From an uncultured Acidobacteriia bacterium (lineage in GTDB: Bacteria > Acidobacteriota > Terriglobia > Bryobacterales > Bryobacteraceae), in NCBI GenBank assembly GCA_903851195.1, contig CAINNJ010000025.1, positions 248,001 to 312,000 of the forward strand: a stretch of 64,000 nt of DNA, given 5' to 3'. Each line of letters begins with the position of its first letter. Position 1 is the first letter of the stretch. Shown piece after piece: positions 6,402 to 39,751 of the stretch. The notes under the pieces are model-generated. The model was not told the DNA's origin, did not search any database, and saw only the letters and a list, made by a program, of their open reading frames with translations. Both the position numbers and the translations under genes were made by a program.

Positions 6402-7278
6402 TACAAGACCGTCCGATACAAGACCGTCTGATACACGGCCGTTTGAGGTGCTGGAAACCGGTGTGATGTTCTGGGCGGGCCGCGACCCCGGCGAGACCAT
6501 TGAGGAGATGAAAGCTCTCGGCGTGCGCTGCGGTCAACTGGCCTTGCCGGGCGATCTGGATCTGAGTTGCGCGCCGGCCTGGAAGGAAGCGCTGCAGGCC
6601 GCGGACTTTACCGTATACACGGTGTTCGCCACGTTCCAGGGCGAGAGCTACGCGGATAAACCGACGGTCTACGAAACGGTCGGCTTCATCCCCCCGGCGA
6701 CCCGCGCGGAACGCGAGCGACGAACCTGCCGGGTCAGCGATTTCGCGGCCGTCATCGGCGCGCCGGCCATCGCCACGCATGTCGGCTGCGTCCCCGACGA
6801 CGACACCAGCGCCGACCACATCGCGGTCCGCGAAATGGTGCGGCGCATCTGCGATCATGCCGAAACGCACGGGCAGAAATTCGCCCTGGAGACCGGACAG
6901 GAAACCGCTCCCGTGCTGCTCGATTTCATGCTTGGAGTGAACCGGCCGAATCTGGGCATCAATTTCGACCCGGCCAATCTGATCCTGTACGGCACGGGCG
7001 ACCCGATCGAAGCGCTGGGTCTGCTGGGCGAACATGTGCTGACGGTCCACTGCAAAGACGGCGACTGGCCGCCTGCGGACCAGCCGAACGCCCTGGGAAC
7101 GGAGCGCCCTCTCGGACACGGTTCCGTCGGTATGGAACGATTCTTGCGCCAGTTGCTGAAGATGGGCTATCGTGGCCCTCTCGCCGTGGAACGCGAGGCG
7201 CAGGACCCGGCCGAACGCCTGCGCGATCTGGCGTCCGGCATTGAATTACTGCGCAAACTGAAAGCCGAACTGCTTTAA
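6394..7278 (+). CDS. Sugar phosphate isomerase/epimerase family protein (TIM barrel, AP_endonuc_2)
   Basis: 294 residues from a TTG start at 6394, about 9 bases after AAGGAG and overlapping the upstream stop by 8 bases. The TIM-barrel fold of xylose-isomerase-like proteins is visible: LALPGDLDL, FAAVIGAPAIATHVG, KFALETGQET (metal Glu), LGINFDPANLILY (metal Asp) and VHCKDGDWP (metal His/Asp). It probably isomerises or epimerises a keto-sugar made by the oxidoreductase before it. The N-terminus consists of three tandem SDTRP units (residues 2-16) coded by a 15-base repeat that looks recently expanded. Confidence 0.85.
   Translation: MSDTRPSDTRPSDTRPFEVLETGVMFWAGRDPGETIEEMKALGVRCGQLALPGDLDLSCAPAWKEALQAADFTVYTVFATFQGESYADKPTVYETVGFIPPATRAERERRTCRVSDFAAVIGAPAIATHVGCVPDDDTSADHIAVREMVRRICDHAETHGQKFALETGQETAPVLLDFMLGVNRPNLGINFDPANLILYGTGDPIEALGLLGEHVLTVHCKDGDWPPADQPNALGTERPLGHGSVGMERFLRQLLKMGYRGPLAVEREAQDPAERLRDLASGIELLRKLKAELL
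6397..6441 (+). repeat. 15-bp tandem repeat, 3 copies, coding SDTRP x3
   Basis: Copies TCTGATACAAGACCG (6397-6411), TCCGATACAAGACCG (6412-6426) and TCTGATACACGGCCG (6427-6441) sit at the stop/start junction of the oxidoreductase and isomerase genes. The first copy also contains the upstream TGA. Each copy adds five residues, so copy number can vary without breaking the frame. Confidence 0.95.
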
Positions 7279-14860: not shown

Positions 14861-16291
14861 CTATCGTCTTTCGAAAGCGTCGGCGAGGCGGAACATTTTC
14901 TGCTCGTCGAAATGATTACAAAGAATCTGGAGGCCGACCGGCAAGCCCTCTCCGGTAGTCCCGCAGGGTACGCTCATGCACGGAATCCCGGCCAGGCTGC
15001 CGGTGATTGTGTAAATGTCGGACAGGTACATTTCCACCGGGTCGCTCATCTTTTCCCCGAGCCGGAAAGCCGGAAACGGAGAAACCGGCGCGATGATCGC
15101 GTCCAGAGATTCGAACGCCCGCGTGAAATCCTTCGAAATCAGGGCGCGCACCTTCTGGGCTTTGACGTAGTAGGCATCGTAATACCCGTGGCTCAGCACG
15201 TAGGTACCCAGCATGATGCGGCGCTTGACCTCGGCGCCGAAACCTTCGCCCCGGGTGTTCTGGTACATGCCGCTCAGGGTGTCGGATTTCGCGGACCGGC
15301 CCGTATAGCGTACGCCGTCGTACCGCGCCAGGTTGGAACTCGCTTCCGCGCAGCAGATGATGTAGTACGTGGCGATGGCGTAATCGGTGGCGGGCAGGCT
15401 GATCTCGCGGACCTCGCAGCCGAGCCCTTCCAGTTCCGTCACGGACCGGTTGATCAGCGCCGCCGTCTCCCCGCTGGCATGCTTCATGTACTCGACCGGG
15501 ATGCCCAGTTTCATGCCCCGAACCTCGCCGGTCAGGTGCGCCGCGTAGTTCGGCACCGGCGCGGCGGCACAGGTGGAATCGAGCGGATCCCGCCCGGCCA
15601 TCACCTCCAGCACGGTGGCCGCGTCCCTCACATTCCGGGCGAACGGCGCCACGTGATCGAGAGAACTGGCATAGGCGACCAGACCGTAGCGCGAAACACG
15701 GCCGTAAGTCGGCGTCACGCCCACAATGCCGCAGAAGGAAGCCGGCTGGCGGACCGAACCGCCGGTATCCGAACCTAACGAAACCACAGCCGTTCCCTGC
15801 GCCACCACGGCAGCCGAACCGCCGCTGGACCCGCCGGGCACGCGATCGGGAGCCACCGGATTTCGCACCGGACCGTAAGCGCTGTTTTCGTTCGACGACC
15901 CCATCGCGAACTCGTCGCAGTTGGTCTTGCCGATCAGGATGCCGCCCGCCGCTTCAATCCGCTCCACCGCCGTGGCGTCGTAAGGCGGAATGTAGTTCTC
16001 CAGCATCTTCGAGCCGCAGGTGGTGCGAACGCCTTTGGTGAGAATCACGTCCTTGACGCCGATCGGCACGCCGCCCAGCGGTCCGGGATCCTCTCCCGCC
16101 GCCAGTTGCCGGTCCACGTTTTCCGCGGCAGCCAGCGCCCGTTCCGGACAGAGGAGCAGATAAGCGTTGGTTTTCGGATTTTCGGCGGCGGCGAAATCGA
16201 GCGCGGCGCGGGTGAGTTCCACCGCCGTGAACTCTTTGTTCTTCAGTCCTTCGCGAACCGACGAAATGGTAAGCTGTGCCACCGGAATCAT
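14861..16291 (-). CDS. gatA: Asp-tRNA(Asn)/Glu-tRNA(Gln) amidotransferase subunit A
   Basis: 476 residues, the usual GatA length. The amidase-signature triad is visible as Lys80 (GVPIGVKD), cis-Ser155 ([11 protein letters not shown]) and the nucleophile Ser179 ([10 protein letters not shown]). GatA releases ammonia from glutamine and passes it to GatB to amidate Glu-tRNA(Gln) or Asp-tRNA(Asn). It is coupled to gatC by a 4-base overlap; gatB is not in the window. Confidence 0.95.
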
Positions 16292-36233: not shown

Positions 36234-38009
36234 TTATCGCACCTGTTCCAGTTCGAGCAGAGGTTTTTTGTTCGGACCGTTCGCGGGAGGCGGCGTCTCG
36301 GACGGCGCGGGCGCGACCACCTGCTCGGGCTGTTCCGGAGGCGCATAGGCGGTCAGGCGAGGCGGACGGGCGTCGGGCTCGAGCAGCAGGACCTGGCGGT
36401 CGCCGTAATAGCGGATCAGCCTTTCGTTGTCGGGCCCCAGGTCGCGAGCCCAGACGACGCGCTGACTGTCGATATCGGCGCCGTTATAGACCCACTCTTC
36501 CTGGAACTGGTGCTGCGGCCAGTACTGGACGAAGATCAGGAGCTTGCCGGGCAGGGCGGCGATCTGGCCGGCAACGTCGCGGCGGCGTTCGGCATTGCGG
36601 TGATTCACGGAATCCCACATGTCGAACGCGCGGGTCTGGCGGGCGAAATCGGCGTTATCGGGCAGGTGAAGGCAGTACCAGAAGGTGAACTGCGCGATGC
36701 AGAGACCGAGAATGGCGCGGGCGAGCAGTGGTCCCTGCGGAAGTCTGGTGAGGCGTTCCAGCCCCCGGACGCTGATGAGGACGAACAGACAGACCACCGC
36801 GGCCAGATAGTGGAACTGAAACGCCGGGAACAGGTTGATGCCGAGCGCGAACAGAGCGCAGGTGAGCGCGACCCAGGCCCAGCGGTAGCTTCGGATGGTT
36901 ACGAGAAAGGCCAGCAGCGCGAGATAGAGCGGCGGGTAGAAGTAGAAGCGATAATAACGGGTCCGGAAGGCGAGACGCTGCAGGTAGCTCGAAACGGTGT
37001 CGCGGCCGGGGTGAAAGGCCCGTTGCATCCGGAAGTCGAGTTCCTGTTCACGCGTGAGCGTGATGTGGGGAGTGAGACTCGGCTGCAGGGTGAGGGGCGC
37101 CGGAACTCCGTACTGGTATTGACTGAGCTGGTAGGGGAGAGTGAACCAGGCTCCCGTAGCGCGTTGGTTCTGCAGCAGGGTGACGCCGATAGCCGGGAGC
37201 ACCACCAATCCCGCGATGGCTGCCGCGCGCCAGGGGACACGGCGCGCGCGTAGTTCCGGCAGAAAATACAGAGCGGCGCTCAACACCAGAAAGACCGATT
37301 CATAGGGCCGGGTGAGAAGGTGAATGGCGATGCCGAGGCCGAGCAGAAGGGCGTTTCGAACACGAGCTTCCGGGTAGTTCCGCAGCCGGGGCAGCGCGCC
37401 GAAGACCAGGCATCCGGCGGCGGCGGAAAGCGCTCCGCCCCAATAGTTATTGGTCCACTGGTTGAGCGGGCCGAATTCGAAGACGGCCAGCAGACCGCCG
37501 GTGAAAGCCCAGGCGGGAGTCGTCCAGCCCCGCAGCATCCAGTAGCAAAGCGAGCAGAACGCGGCGGCGCCGAGCAGGACACCAGCCCACGGGTTGCCGA
37601 ATAGGTTCCACGCCATCGCGAGCAGCAGGCCGTTGCCGATGGGATAGATGGCGCCGTAAGCCGGTTGCTGCAGGACGAAGAAGGTCTCGAAAAACTGGTG
37701 CAGAGGATGCGCCGGATTCGCGAGGCGCCCGTGGCGCAGCGTGTCGGCCACCAGCAGATGTCCGAACTCATCGTAGATATCGGGCACGGGAACGGGGTGA
37801 TTCGGCAGAAGCAGCAGGCGCAACAAGACGGGCAAGACAGCGAACAGGAGCAGGCACCAGCCGGTGTGGCGCGCGAAGCGGGCCGTGAGCGGGGCCAGCC
37901 ACGGCCGCCAGAAGAGCGTCAGAGCGACCAGGAAAAGGGCGACGTAAAGAACGACGAAGTCCGCGGCGCCGAAGCCGATGGGGTTTCGCAGCGGGACGAA
38001 GGAAAACAT
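36234..38009 (-). CDS. Polytopic membrane protein, GT-C glycosyltransferase-like
   Basis: 591 residues, about 11-12 membrane helices, with the acidic N-terminal loop PDIYDEFGHLLVADTL and GPLNQWTNNYWGG, as in GT39-like mannosyl/arabinosyltransferases. The C-terminal soluble part ends in a Pro-rich tail. Donor and acceptor unknown. The start codon lies only about 12 bases after an intrinsic terminator, so expression probably depends on read-through of that terminator. Confidence 0.72.
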   Translation of the reverse strand: MFSFVPLRNPIGFGAADFVVLYVALFLVALTLFWRPWLAPLTARFARHTGWCLLLFAVLPVLLRLLLLPNHPVPVPDIYDEFGHLLVADTLRHGRLANPAHPLHQFFETFFVLQQPAYGAIYPIGNGLLLAMAWNLFGNPWAGVLLGAAAFCSLCYWMLRGWTTPAWAFTGGLLAVFEFGPLNQWTNNYWGGALSAAAGCLVFGALPRLRNYPEARVRNALLLGLGIAIHLLTRPYESVFLVLSAALYFLPELRARRVPWRAAAIAGLVVLPAIGVTLLQNQRATGAWFTLPYQLSQYQYGVPAPLTLQPSLTPHITLTREQELDFRMQRAFHPGRDTVSSYLQRLAFRTRYYRFYFYPPLYLALLAFLVTIRSYRWAWVALTCALFALGINLFPAFQFHYLAAVVCLFVLISVRGLERLTRLPQGPLLARAILGLCIAQFTFWYCLHLPDNADFARQTRAFDMWDSVNHRNAERRRDVAGQIAALPGKLLIFVQYWPQHQFQEEWVYNGADIDSQRVVWARDLGPDNERLIRYYGDRQVLLLEPDARPPRLTAYAPPEQPEQVVAPAPSETPPPANGPNKKPLLELEQVR

Positions 38010-38021
38010 GCGGAGAGGGAG

Positions 38022-38052
38022 AATAAAAAACCGGGACCCGAAGGCCCCGGTT
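38022..38052 (-). terminator. Intrinsic terminator with UUCG loop directly before a start codon
   Basis: On the minus strand AACCGGGGCC-TTCG-GGTCCCGGTT (10 bp including one G.T pair) is followed by TTTTATT. The T-run ends about 12 bases before the ATG at 38009. Confidence 0.9.
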
Positions 38053-38151
38053 CAGGGAGTGGAGGCATGCTCCACGCCGCGTCGATCAGGTTTGACCCTA
38101 TTGTTCGAATTTCTTTGTCCCCTTCGAATCGGGGTGTTCCAAGAATAACAT
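38053..38151 (-). promoter_or_regulatory. Structured leader or small RNA upstream of the membrane GT-C gene (candidate)
   Basis: Extended -10 TG-T-TATTCT (38142-38150) would start RNA near 38135. The RNA then holds a CCCC-GATTCGAA-GGGG hairpin (38119-38134), a second ATTCGAA, AGGGTCAAACCT, and a GTGGAG/CTCCAC hairpin (38059-38075) before the terminator. The segment CCCCGATT can also pair, 7 of 8, with the terminator arm AACCGGGG, an antiterminator-like option. I recognise no known riboswitch or RNA family in it. Confidence 0.5.
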
Positions 38152-38176
38152 GGGCCGCTGGAGTTTCTCCGCGCCG

Positions 38177-39751
38177 CTAGACTTTCTCTGCGATGGATTT
38201 GGCCTGCAGGAAGAGCAGCAGATAATCCGGGCCGCCGGCTTTGGAATCGGTGCCCGACATATTGAAGCCGCCGAACGGATGCGCGCCCACCATGGCTCCG
38301 GTGCACTTGCGGTTGATGTACATGTTGCCGACGAAGAACTCCTCGCGCGCCCGCTGCACGTGCTCCGGATTGTTCGAATAGATCGCGCCGGTGAGGCCGT
38401 AAACGGAGTCGTTGGCCATGGTCATCAGTTCGTCGAAGTCGCGCGCTTTGGCGACGGCGAGGACGGGTCCGAAGATCTCTTCCTGGAAGAGACGGGATCT
38501 CGAATCGACGTCGACGAAGACCGTCGGCGGGACGTAGTAGCCGAGTTCGGAGCTTTCCTCGCCGCCCGTGAGCAGACGGCCTTCGCCGCGGCCGATTTCG
38601 ATGTAAGAAAGAATGGTCCGCCGCGCGCCGGCGCTGATGACCGGTCCCATGTAGTGCGCGGGGTCGTCGGGAGCGCCCACGCGGATTTTTTCCGTGCGGG
38701 CTTTCAGCTTTTCGACGAACGCGTCGTAGACATCCGCATGCACAATGGCGCGGGAACAGGCCGAACATTTCTGGCCCTGATAGCCGAAGGCGGAGACCGC
38801 GACGCCTTCGACGGCGGCTTCGAGATCGCAATCGCTGTCGACCAGAATGGCGTCTTTGCCGCCCATTTCGGCGACCACGCGCTTGATCCAGATCTGGCCC
38901 GGCTGAGCTTTCGCGGCCAGTTCGTTGATATGCAGGCCGACGTCGCGGGAGCCGGTGAAGGAAGTAAAGCGGGTCTTCGGATGCGCTACCAGAGCGTCCC
39001 CTATTTTGCCGCCGCTGCCGGTAAGGAAACAGAACGACTCGGGCGGGAAACCGGCTTCGAGCAGCGCTTCGGCGAAGACCGCCGCGATGGTGGGCGTTTC
39101 GCTGGAAGGCTTGATCACGACAGTGTTGCCGGCGACCAGCGCCGCGACCGTCATGCCGCAAAGGATGGCGAGGGCGAAATTCCACGGCGGGATCACGACG
39201 CCCACGCCGAGCGGCAGATAACGCATCTCATCGCGCTCGCCGGGCAACTGCACCACGGTTTGCGGACCGGCCAGACGAGCCATCTCCCGTGCGTAGTATT
39301 CGCAGAAATCGACGGCCTCGGCGACTTCGGCTTCCGCTTCGGGCCAGGTCTTACCGGCCTCAAAGACCAGCCAGGCATCGAACTCGAGCTTGCGTTCGCG
39401 AATGATGGCGGCCAGACGCAGCGCCATGCCGATGCGAGCTTCGGCCGGAGTTTTGCTCCAGCGGGGAAAGTTGCTCCAGGCCAGATCGATCGCCCGCGCG
39501 GCCTGTTCCACGGTGGCTTTCTGCAGCACGCCCACCACTTCATCGGGACGAGCGGGATTGACGGAGGTCAGTTTCTCATCCGCGCGGACGCGCTCACCGC
39601 ACAGCAGCAGGTCGTATTCACGGCCCAGCAGCGCGCGAACCTTCTGCTGCGCCGCTTCCATGCGCGCGCGGTTTTCGGGCGCGGTGAAATCGGTGTACGG
39701 CTCGTTGCGAAATTCCGGCAGACTTAAGCCAAGCGTTCCTTCAATCGCCAT
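38177..39751 (-). CDS. pruA: L-glutamate gamma-semialdehyde (1-pyrroline-5-carboxylate) dehydrogenase
   Basis: 524 residues, as in RocA/PruA single-domain enzymes. It oxidises glutamate semialdehyde to glutamate with NAD(P), the second step of proline breakdown. Visible motifs: PPWNFALAI, KPSSETP, FTGSRDVG, the general base Glu in EMGGKD and nucleophile Cys in GQKCSACSR. Proline dehydrogenase is not adjacent. Follows the MBL gene with a 28-base overlap. Confidence 0.92.
   Translation of the reverse strand: MAIEGTLGLSLPEFRNEPYTDFTAPENRARMEAAQQKVRALLGREYDLLLCGERVRADEKLTSVNPARPDEVVGVLQKATVEQAARAIDLAWSNFPRWSKTPAEARIGMALRLAAIIRERKLEFDAWLVFEAGKTWPEAEAEVAEAVDFCEYYAREMARLAGPQTVVQLPGERDEMRYLPLGVGVVIPPWNFALAILCGMTVAALVAGNTVVIKPSSETPTIAAVFAEALLEAGFPPESFCFLTGSGGKIGDALVAHPKTRFTSFTGSRDVGLHINELAAKAQPGQIWIKRVVAEMGGKDAILVDSDCDLEAAVEGVAVSAFGYQGQKCSACSRAIVHADVYDAFVEKLKARTEKIRVGAPDDPAHYMGPVISAGARRTILSYIEIGRGEGRLLTGGEESSELGYYVPPTVFVDVDSRSRLFQEEIFGPVLAVAKARDFDELMTMANDSVYGLTGAIYSNNPEHVQRAREEFFVGNMYINRKCTGAMVGAHPFGGFNMSGTDSKAGGPDYLLLFLQAKSIAEKV

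Follow-up and report, generated by a model that had tools for sequence, protein, structure and literature searches.

The window analysed here, the whole stretch of 64,000 nucleotides, holds on its minus strand a gap of 167 bases (38010-38176) between pruA and an open reading frame (ORF) for a protein of 591 residues. An extended -10 promoter element, two hairpins and a strong terminator with a UUCG loop had been reported in this gap by a preliminary description, and all of them were located on the minus strand between 38150 and 38020. The features of the locus are as follows:

38177..39751, minus strand: pruA (L-glutamate gamma-semialdehyde dehydrogenase), the upstream neighbour; TIGR01237, 714.5 bits against a cut-off of 659.65
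38142..38150, minus strand: extended -10 promoter element TGTTATTCT; conservation assessed position by position in 55 loci and against shuffles
38020..38135, minus strand: whole predicted small RNA of about 115 bases; its start is placed by the -10 and its end by the terminator
About 38135 and about 38024-38020, minus strand: predicted ends of the small RNA, the first base being an A (a purine) and the 3' end falling in the T-run/TTCT
38075..38134, minus strand: family-wide conserved core of 60 nt; alignment A1, model R1
38119..38134, minus strand: 5' hairpin P1, CCCC-GATTCGAA-GGGG; stem invariant in A1
38059..38075, minus strand: middle hairpin P2, GTGGAGCATGCCTCCAC, that is, GTGGAG-CATGC-CTCCAC; present in the majority of sequences from the window's genus and in a small number of others
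38029..38052, minus strand: intrinsic terminator stem-loop with a UUCG loop, AACCGGGGCC-TTCG-GGTCCCGGTT; 7 of 10 pairs changed on both sides
38025..38030, minus strand: six-T run of the terminator
36234..38009, minus strand: ORF of 591 aa, an incidental downstream neighbour; no family match

The downstream gene had been labelled as a membrane protein of the GT-C type, a label not confirmed by the family searches, in which its product had no match in Pfam up to E 1 or in NCBIfam at E 0.001. Its ATG (38009) lies 15 bases from the six-T run, and not about 12 as originally estimated. Between P1 and P2, the element contains an A-rich stretch.

Taken on its own, the signal in the window is modest. 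The folding z-score is -2.0 for the 167 nt of the gap and -2.5 for a segment of 123 nt, and a terminator scan of 2 kb gives two sites against 2.1 expected, the site of the element having 11 pairs and the other one 6. The promoter is absent from the list returned by a sigma-70 scan of the window, which missed it because it has no -35. What places the element beyond chance is its conservation among relatives, both in the placement of the -10 and in the invariant columns of the core.

A blast search with the element of a relative (G011) gave matches in 55 of 121 relatives. Alignment A1, on which the covariance model R1 is based, comprises 54 cores in 60 gapless columns, and leaves out L090 (the second blast match of G075, judged a non-member) and L094 (which has a one-base insertion). 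Fourteen of the 60 columns are invariant among the 54 sequences and, over the 55 loci, the core is much better conserved than the DNA immediately upstream. A covariance search of relatives' loci, proposed in the preliminary description as a check, finds the core in 212 of 237 Bryobacteraceae genomes (~90%; R1 at E <= 0.01), three of which are marginal (G172, G188, and G191, with E 0.003-0.01); conservation is accompanied by covariation, which is seen in P2 and the terminator. The matches span 73 of the 76 genera of the family and 139 of its 148 good-quality genomes, and 204 of the 212 positive genomes, by our count, have one match only.

Homologues beyond the Bryobacteraceae were considered and rejected, the class, order and phylum samples yielding only marginal matches outside the family. 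The class sample (399 genomes, E <= 5e-4) contains 94 genomes that match R1, 93 of them in Bryobacteraceae, and the order sample (250 genomes, E <= 0.001) contains 205, with one outside. The sole outside match in both samples is that of G038, from family f3, which has an E of 2.1e-4 and covers positions 1-29 only, with the remainder of the element not seen beyond them. In the phylum sample (396 genomes, E <= 0.01), 3 of the 15 matches come from Bryobacteraceae (E <= 1e-15), and the 12 others (E 0.001-0.009) are read as chance. A pattern with 22 fixed bases returned 82 stretches from a named genome collection; all 80 listed bear acidobacterial titles, and Bryobacteraceae, Paludibaculum, Candidatus Solibacter, and Candidatus Sulfopaludibacter appear among the matches listed. 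On the basis of these titles, the family covered by the searches is taken to be Bryobacteraceae or a close equivalent of it.

When the 55 loci are aligned at the CCCC of P1, upstream conservation is limited to a TG at -16/-15, a TA at -13/-12, a T at -8, and a purine at -1; a weaker purine bias is seen between these positions. Information upstream of -16 does not exceed about 0.2 bits, and no conserved -35 is found across the aligned loci. The motif TAnnnT occupies exactly -13 to -8 in 36 of the 55 loci, where shuffling gives 0.64, and falls within one base of this placement in 45 (1.9 by shuffling). On the other side of the core, the best hairpin reaches 10 pairs or more in 53 of the 55 loci and 9 in the remaining two (L057 and L093), as counted without a shuffle control by a scorer that always returns a best hairpin. 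Outside the window's genus, the T-runs are frequently short or interrupted. The length predicted for the RNA across relatives ranges from 86 to 131 nt. By these comparisons, the two features that mark the gene of a small RNA (sRNA), a promoter and an intrinsic terminator of its own, are both predicted for the element.

The structure of the RNA was evaluated in A2, an alignment of 16 selected RNAs with P2, which comprises 14 of the 18 same-genus sequences together with L062 and L088. These were drawn from 19 prepared RNAs, leaving out three with long terminators (L049, L057, and L076); A2 also omits L070, a member of the same genus that lacks P2. All six pairs of P2 exhibit compensatory changes on both sides, as do most of those of the terminator, and 99.4% of the helix cells are paired. 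None of 500 shuffles equals A2 in pairing percentage, double changes or covariation score, statistics that ignore kinship and use a structure derived from the same 16 sequences, while 85 of the 500 have at least as many further pair types. RNAalifold predicts the same helices for this alignment.

P1 is the only helix predicted inside the core, the remainder of which looks unpaired. The stem of P1 is the same throughout A1 and, because it never varies, it provides no evidence from covariation; no convincing covariation was found inside the 60-nt core. Two further core helices were tried and rejected: a GUC/GAC helix (39-41 with 52-54), where one pair has two double changes and the score is equalled by 31 of 500 shuffles, and a GACC/GGUC helix (16-19 with 38-41), with zero double changes. 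In L231 (G092), P1 is replaced by another 5' hairpin, and it is apparently missing from L232 (G091) and L233 (G219). All three loci nevertheless retain their terminator, the core beyond P1 and a sequence resembling a -10, from which we infer that P1 can be separated from the rest of the RNA as a 5' module.

No RNA family had been recognised in the element, and this holds for the catalogue: at gathering scores, Rfam 15 gives no matches in the window or in the loci of 20 relatives, the best sub-threshold match in the window having an E of 0.21 at a lax threshold. Several RNA candidates from Acidobacteria or soil have been reported (Acido-1, RF01686; Acido-Lenti-1, RF01687; Solibacter-1; and Soil-1), all four of which are marked 'n' for cis-regulatory in the table of that report (Weinberg et al. 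2010, PMC2864571). Acido-1 and Acido-Lenti-1 are in Rfam, and the release scanned is assumed to include both, yet no family matched the element. Solibacter-1 and Soil-1 stand in the same table without an Rfam accession; Solibacter-1 is listed there for a single species, Solibacter usitatus, whereas the element is family-wide. No published description of this RNA turned up in searches of open-licence papers.

It is extremely improbable that the element is a short coding sequence or an overlooked housekeeping RNA, such as 6S or SRP RNA. A gapless core alignment would suit a coding sequence, as would the fact that one frame is free of stops in 38 of the 54 sequences (stops occur in 18, 36, and 16 of them in the three frames). 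However, the core exhibits no codon periodicity, with variability even over the codon positions in the 54 sequences, and no start codon is common to most of them. As for the housekeeping RNAs, which are conserved and non-coding like the element and to one of which, SRP RNA, it is close in size, they were found at other genomic positions. SRP RNA (RF00169) has one match per genome, away from the element, in 10 of 10 genomes; in G001, both RNAs lie on the same contig (C107), about 8.5 kb apart, the new RNA at 7018-7133 and SRP RNA at 15583-15680. Matches to 6S RNA (RF00013) were obtained in 16 of 41 genomes, three of them over the cut-off and always on a contig other than that of the element, although RF00013, run with stricter filters, detected no 6S RNA in the genome of the window (G000). 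Several genomes of the same genus do match, and the missing 6S match in G000 is perhaps a limit of sensitivity.

The gene context was compared on both sides of the RNA, by means of open frames, in 114 loci with distinct cores. These loci, which include L214 and L215 from the named collection, were chosen by a pattern that requires P1, so members without P1 are absent from them. On the upstream side, pruA is found on the same strand in 32 of the 114 loci (tblastn), and it ends within 150 nt of the RNA in 27, which makes it the commonest assigned upstream neighbour. This arrangement could suggest that the element is the 3' end of the pruA transcript, made up of a conserved 3' UTR and a terminator of the usual kind. 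This is very unlikely, considering that pruA is not so placed in the other 87 loci, that a cyclophilin-like protein (judged by reading its sequence) is assigned upstream in 21, and that a -10 is conserved between pruA and the core. Moreover, in G011 the element is preceded by ~570 bases of contig, in which no pruA is found; conservation therefore tracks the element and not its neighbours.

On the downstream side, the preliminary description had favoured a riboswitch or attenuator in the leader of the membrane-protein gene, where the 5' sequence CCCCGATT would toggle between a local GGGG and the terminator arm. In the window, the terminator does stand immediately ahead of the ATG, and the pairing of CCCCGATT with the terminator arm was reproduced at 7 of 8 pairs. 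However, a 7 of 8 match between the 5' octamer and the region 3' of the core is reached in 6 of 55 sequences, against 4.96 for shuffled targets, so the alternative pairing is no commoner than in shuffles and the attenuation logic built on it falls away. Furthermore, 13 of the 18 same-genus members lack a GGGG in the 5' arm of the terminator. That such a pairing is available in the window and in a small number of other sequences looks coincidental.

The genes themselves also speak against such a leader. The 591-aa gene follows the RNA in just 3 of the 114 loci (tblastn). Relatives of its product occur in 33 of 61 genomes, often in multiple copies; in the 330 bases upstream of 15 such genes, that of the window included, the element is present in 3 (G000, G009, and G011) and absent in 12. 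Where an assigned conserved ORF starts within 400 nt downstream (46 loci), 26 of them face the RNA and 20 point away, the latter co-directional count being too low because ORFs that overlap the RNA, as in G011, were excluded. The assigned downstream ORFs fall into 15 clusters and both orientations, and their variation excludes the leader of one gene as a general explanation. With no Rfam match added to this, an attenuator or riboswitch of the downstream gene is highly improbable. The remaining proposal of the preliminary description, an independent small RNA, fares better, as promoter, core and terminator are conserved in changing gene contexts; the neighbours differ between loci, as would be expected of an sRNA that is not tied to a neighbouring gene.

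A different origin for P1 is suggested by its resemblance to the repeats of a CRISPR array in the same genome. The array holds at least six repeats (GTCGGAAACCATGCCCCCATGCGAAGGGGATTGAGAC), whose stem-loop, CCCC-CATGCGAA-GGGG, has 14 of 16 bases in common with the CCCC-GATTCGAA-GGGG of P1. It is located beside a type III-B operon, and a Cas6 gene (PF10040, E 3.2e-13) is found about 7 kb beyond it:

G000:C60 (L262 12003-19300, L263 6315-7442; also L007): type III-B system of the window's own genome, with Cmr1, Cas10/Cmr2, and Cmr3-6

An ORF for a SAVED/TIR-like effector is also present beside these Cmr genes. In other genomes, reached through partial matches to the model (positions 1-17), the sequence CCCCGATNNGAAGGGGATTGARAC appears in two CRISPR arrays of G208 and in a two-copy repeat of G270. 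Together with the invariance of P1, which would suggest recognition, these findings raise the idea that P1 is an ectopic copy or a mimic of the repeat stem-loop, recognised by Cas6 or by a type III effector in a role other than defence.

Several observations argue against it. The likeness ends one base past the stem, where the repeat continues into ATTGARAC and the RNA into ACCANGAA or similar, and the RNA contains neither this repeat-type 5' handle nor a second copy of the repeat. The sample of arrays is biased, because they were found through resemblance to P1, and four other partial P1-like matches (G270:C165, G270:C12, G178:C11, and G028:C9) yielded, in the stretches examined, no array with as many as three copies. 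Agreement between the loop letters and those of the host repeats is incomplete: the G208 RNA reads GCA against GAA in both repeats of that genome, and the two variable letters of the loop differ between RNA and repeat in G270. Finally, some members have no P1 (L232 and L233) or carry another hairpin (L231). The known CreA and other ectopic CRISPR-repeat RNAs share with the element a repeat-like stem-loop outside an array, as described in their reports (PMC9458426, PMC8501985, PMC10097628); compared with CreA, the element has the stem-loop only, and not the repeat-type 5' handle or the second repeat. A family-wide RNA in which Cas6 or the Cmr complex binds a P1 that is a fixed copy or mimic of the type III repeat stem-loop is accordingly considered unlikely. 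If true, it would mean that CRISPR components process or use a conserved RNA outside defence, or that this RNA restrains them.

Weighing these lines of comparison, the element is most probably the gene of a small non-coding RNA that is transcribed independently, from its own promoter to its own terminator (a probability of about 0.85). As for its action, the best reading is a lineage-specific sRNA acting in trans, possibly with the use of Hfq, and an RNA that acts in trans by base pairing would be the most economical one. The comparison supports a model where the extended -10 promoter starts the RNA at the purine just before CCCC and the intrinsic terminator would end it at about 86-131 nt. 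P1 may protect the 5' end or be bound by a protein. The largely unpaired part of the core (approximately positions 17-60) would do the work, base-pairing in trans with other RNAs, possibly with the help of Hfq.

Trans-acting sRNAs of the Hfq type are short, with their own promoter, a Rho-independent terminator and a largely unpaired conserved core, and they are found in hosts that encode Hfq. The element resembles them in each of these respects, including the presence of Hfq, which is encoded in 23 of 23 tested Bryobacteraceae genomes (91-96 bits). It differs from them in that no Rfam family matched it and in its T-runs outside the genus, since short or interrupted T-runs are unlike typical Hfq-type terminators. 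The RNA is present in 16 of these 23 genomes; the seven others encode Hfq with no convincing match to the RNA, and therefore Hfq does not predict the RNA. In the sister family f3 of the same order, four of the five tested genomes have no Hfq match (G038, G040, G041, and G047). No CsrA match was found in three of the 16 tested genomes that bear the RNA (G026, G208, and G092, whose assemblies are 91-97% complete, so that a missed gene is possible), which speaks against a CsrB-like role as a sponge that sequesters CsrA.

With no catalogued RNA family matched, the element would represent a new conserved small RNA of the Bryobacteraceae. Very few small RNAs have been charted in Acidobacteriota: a 2022 survey based on Rfam-derived annotation gives 4 distinct sRNAs for this phylum, compared to 345 for Proteobacteria (PMC9029176). 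The present analysis corrects a tempting mis-annotation of the element as a riboswitch, and its model and alignments allow direct testing in cultured members of the family. An RNA that is held by about 90% of Bryobacteraceae genomes offers an entry point to post-transcriptional control in these bacteria.
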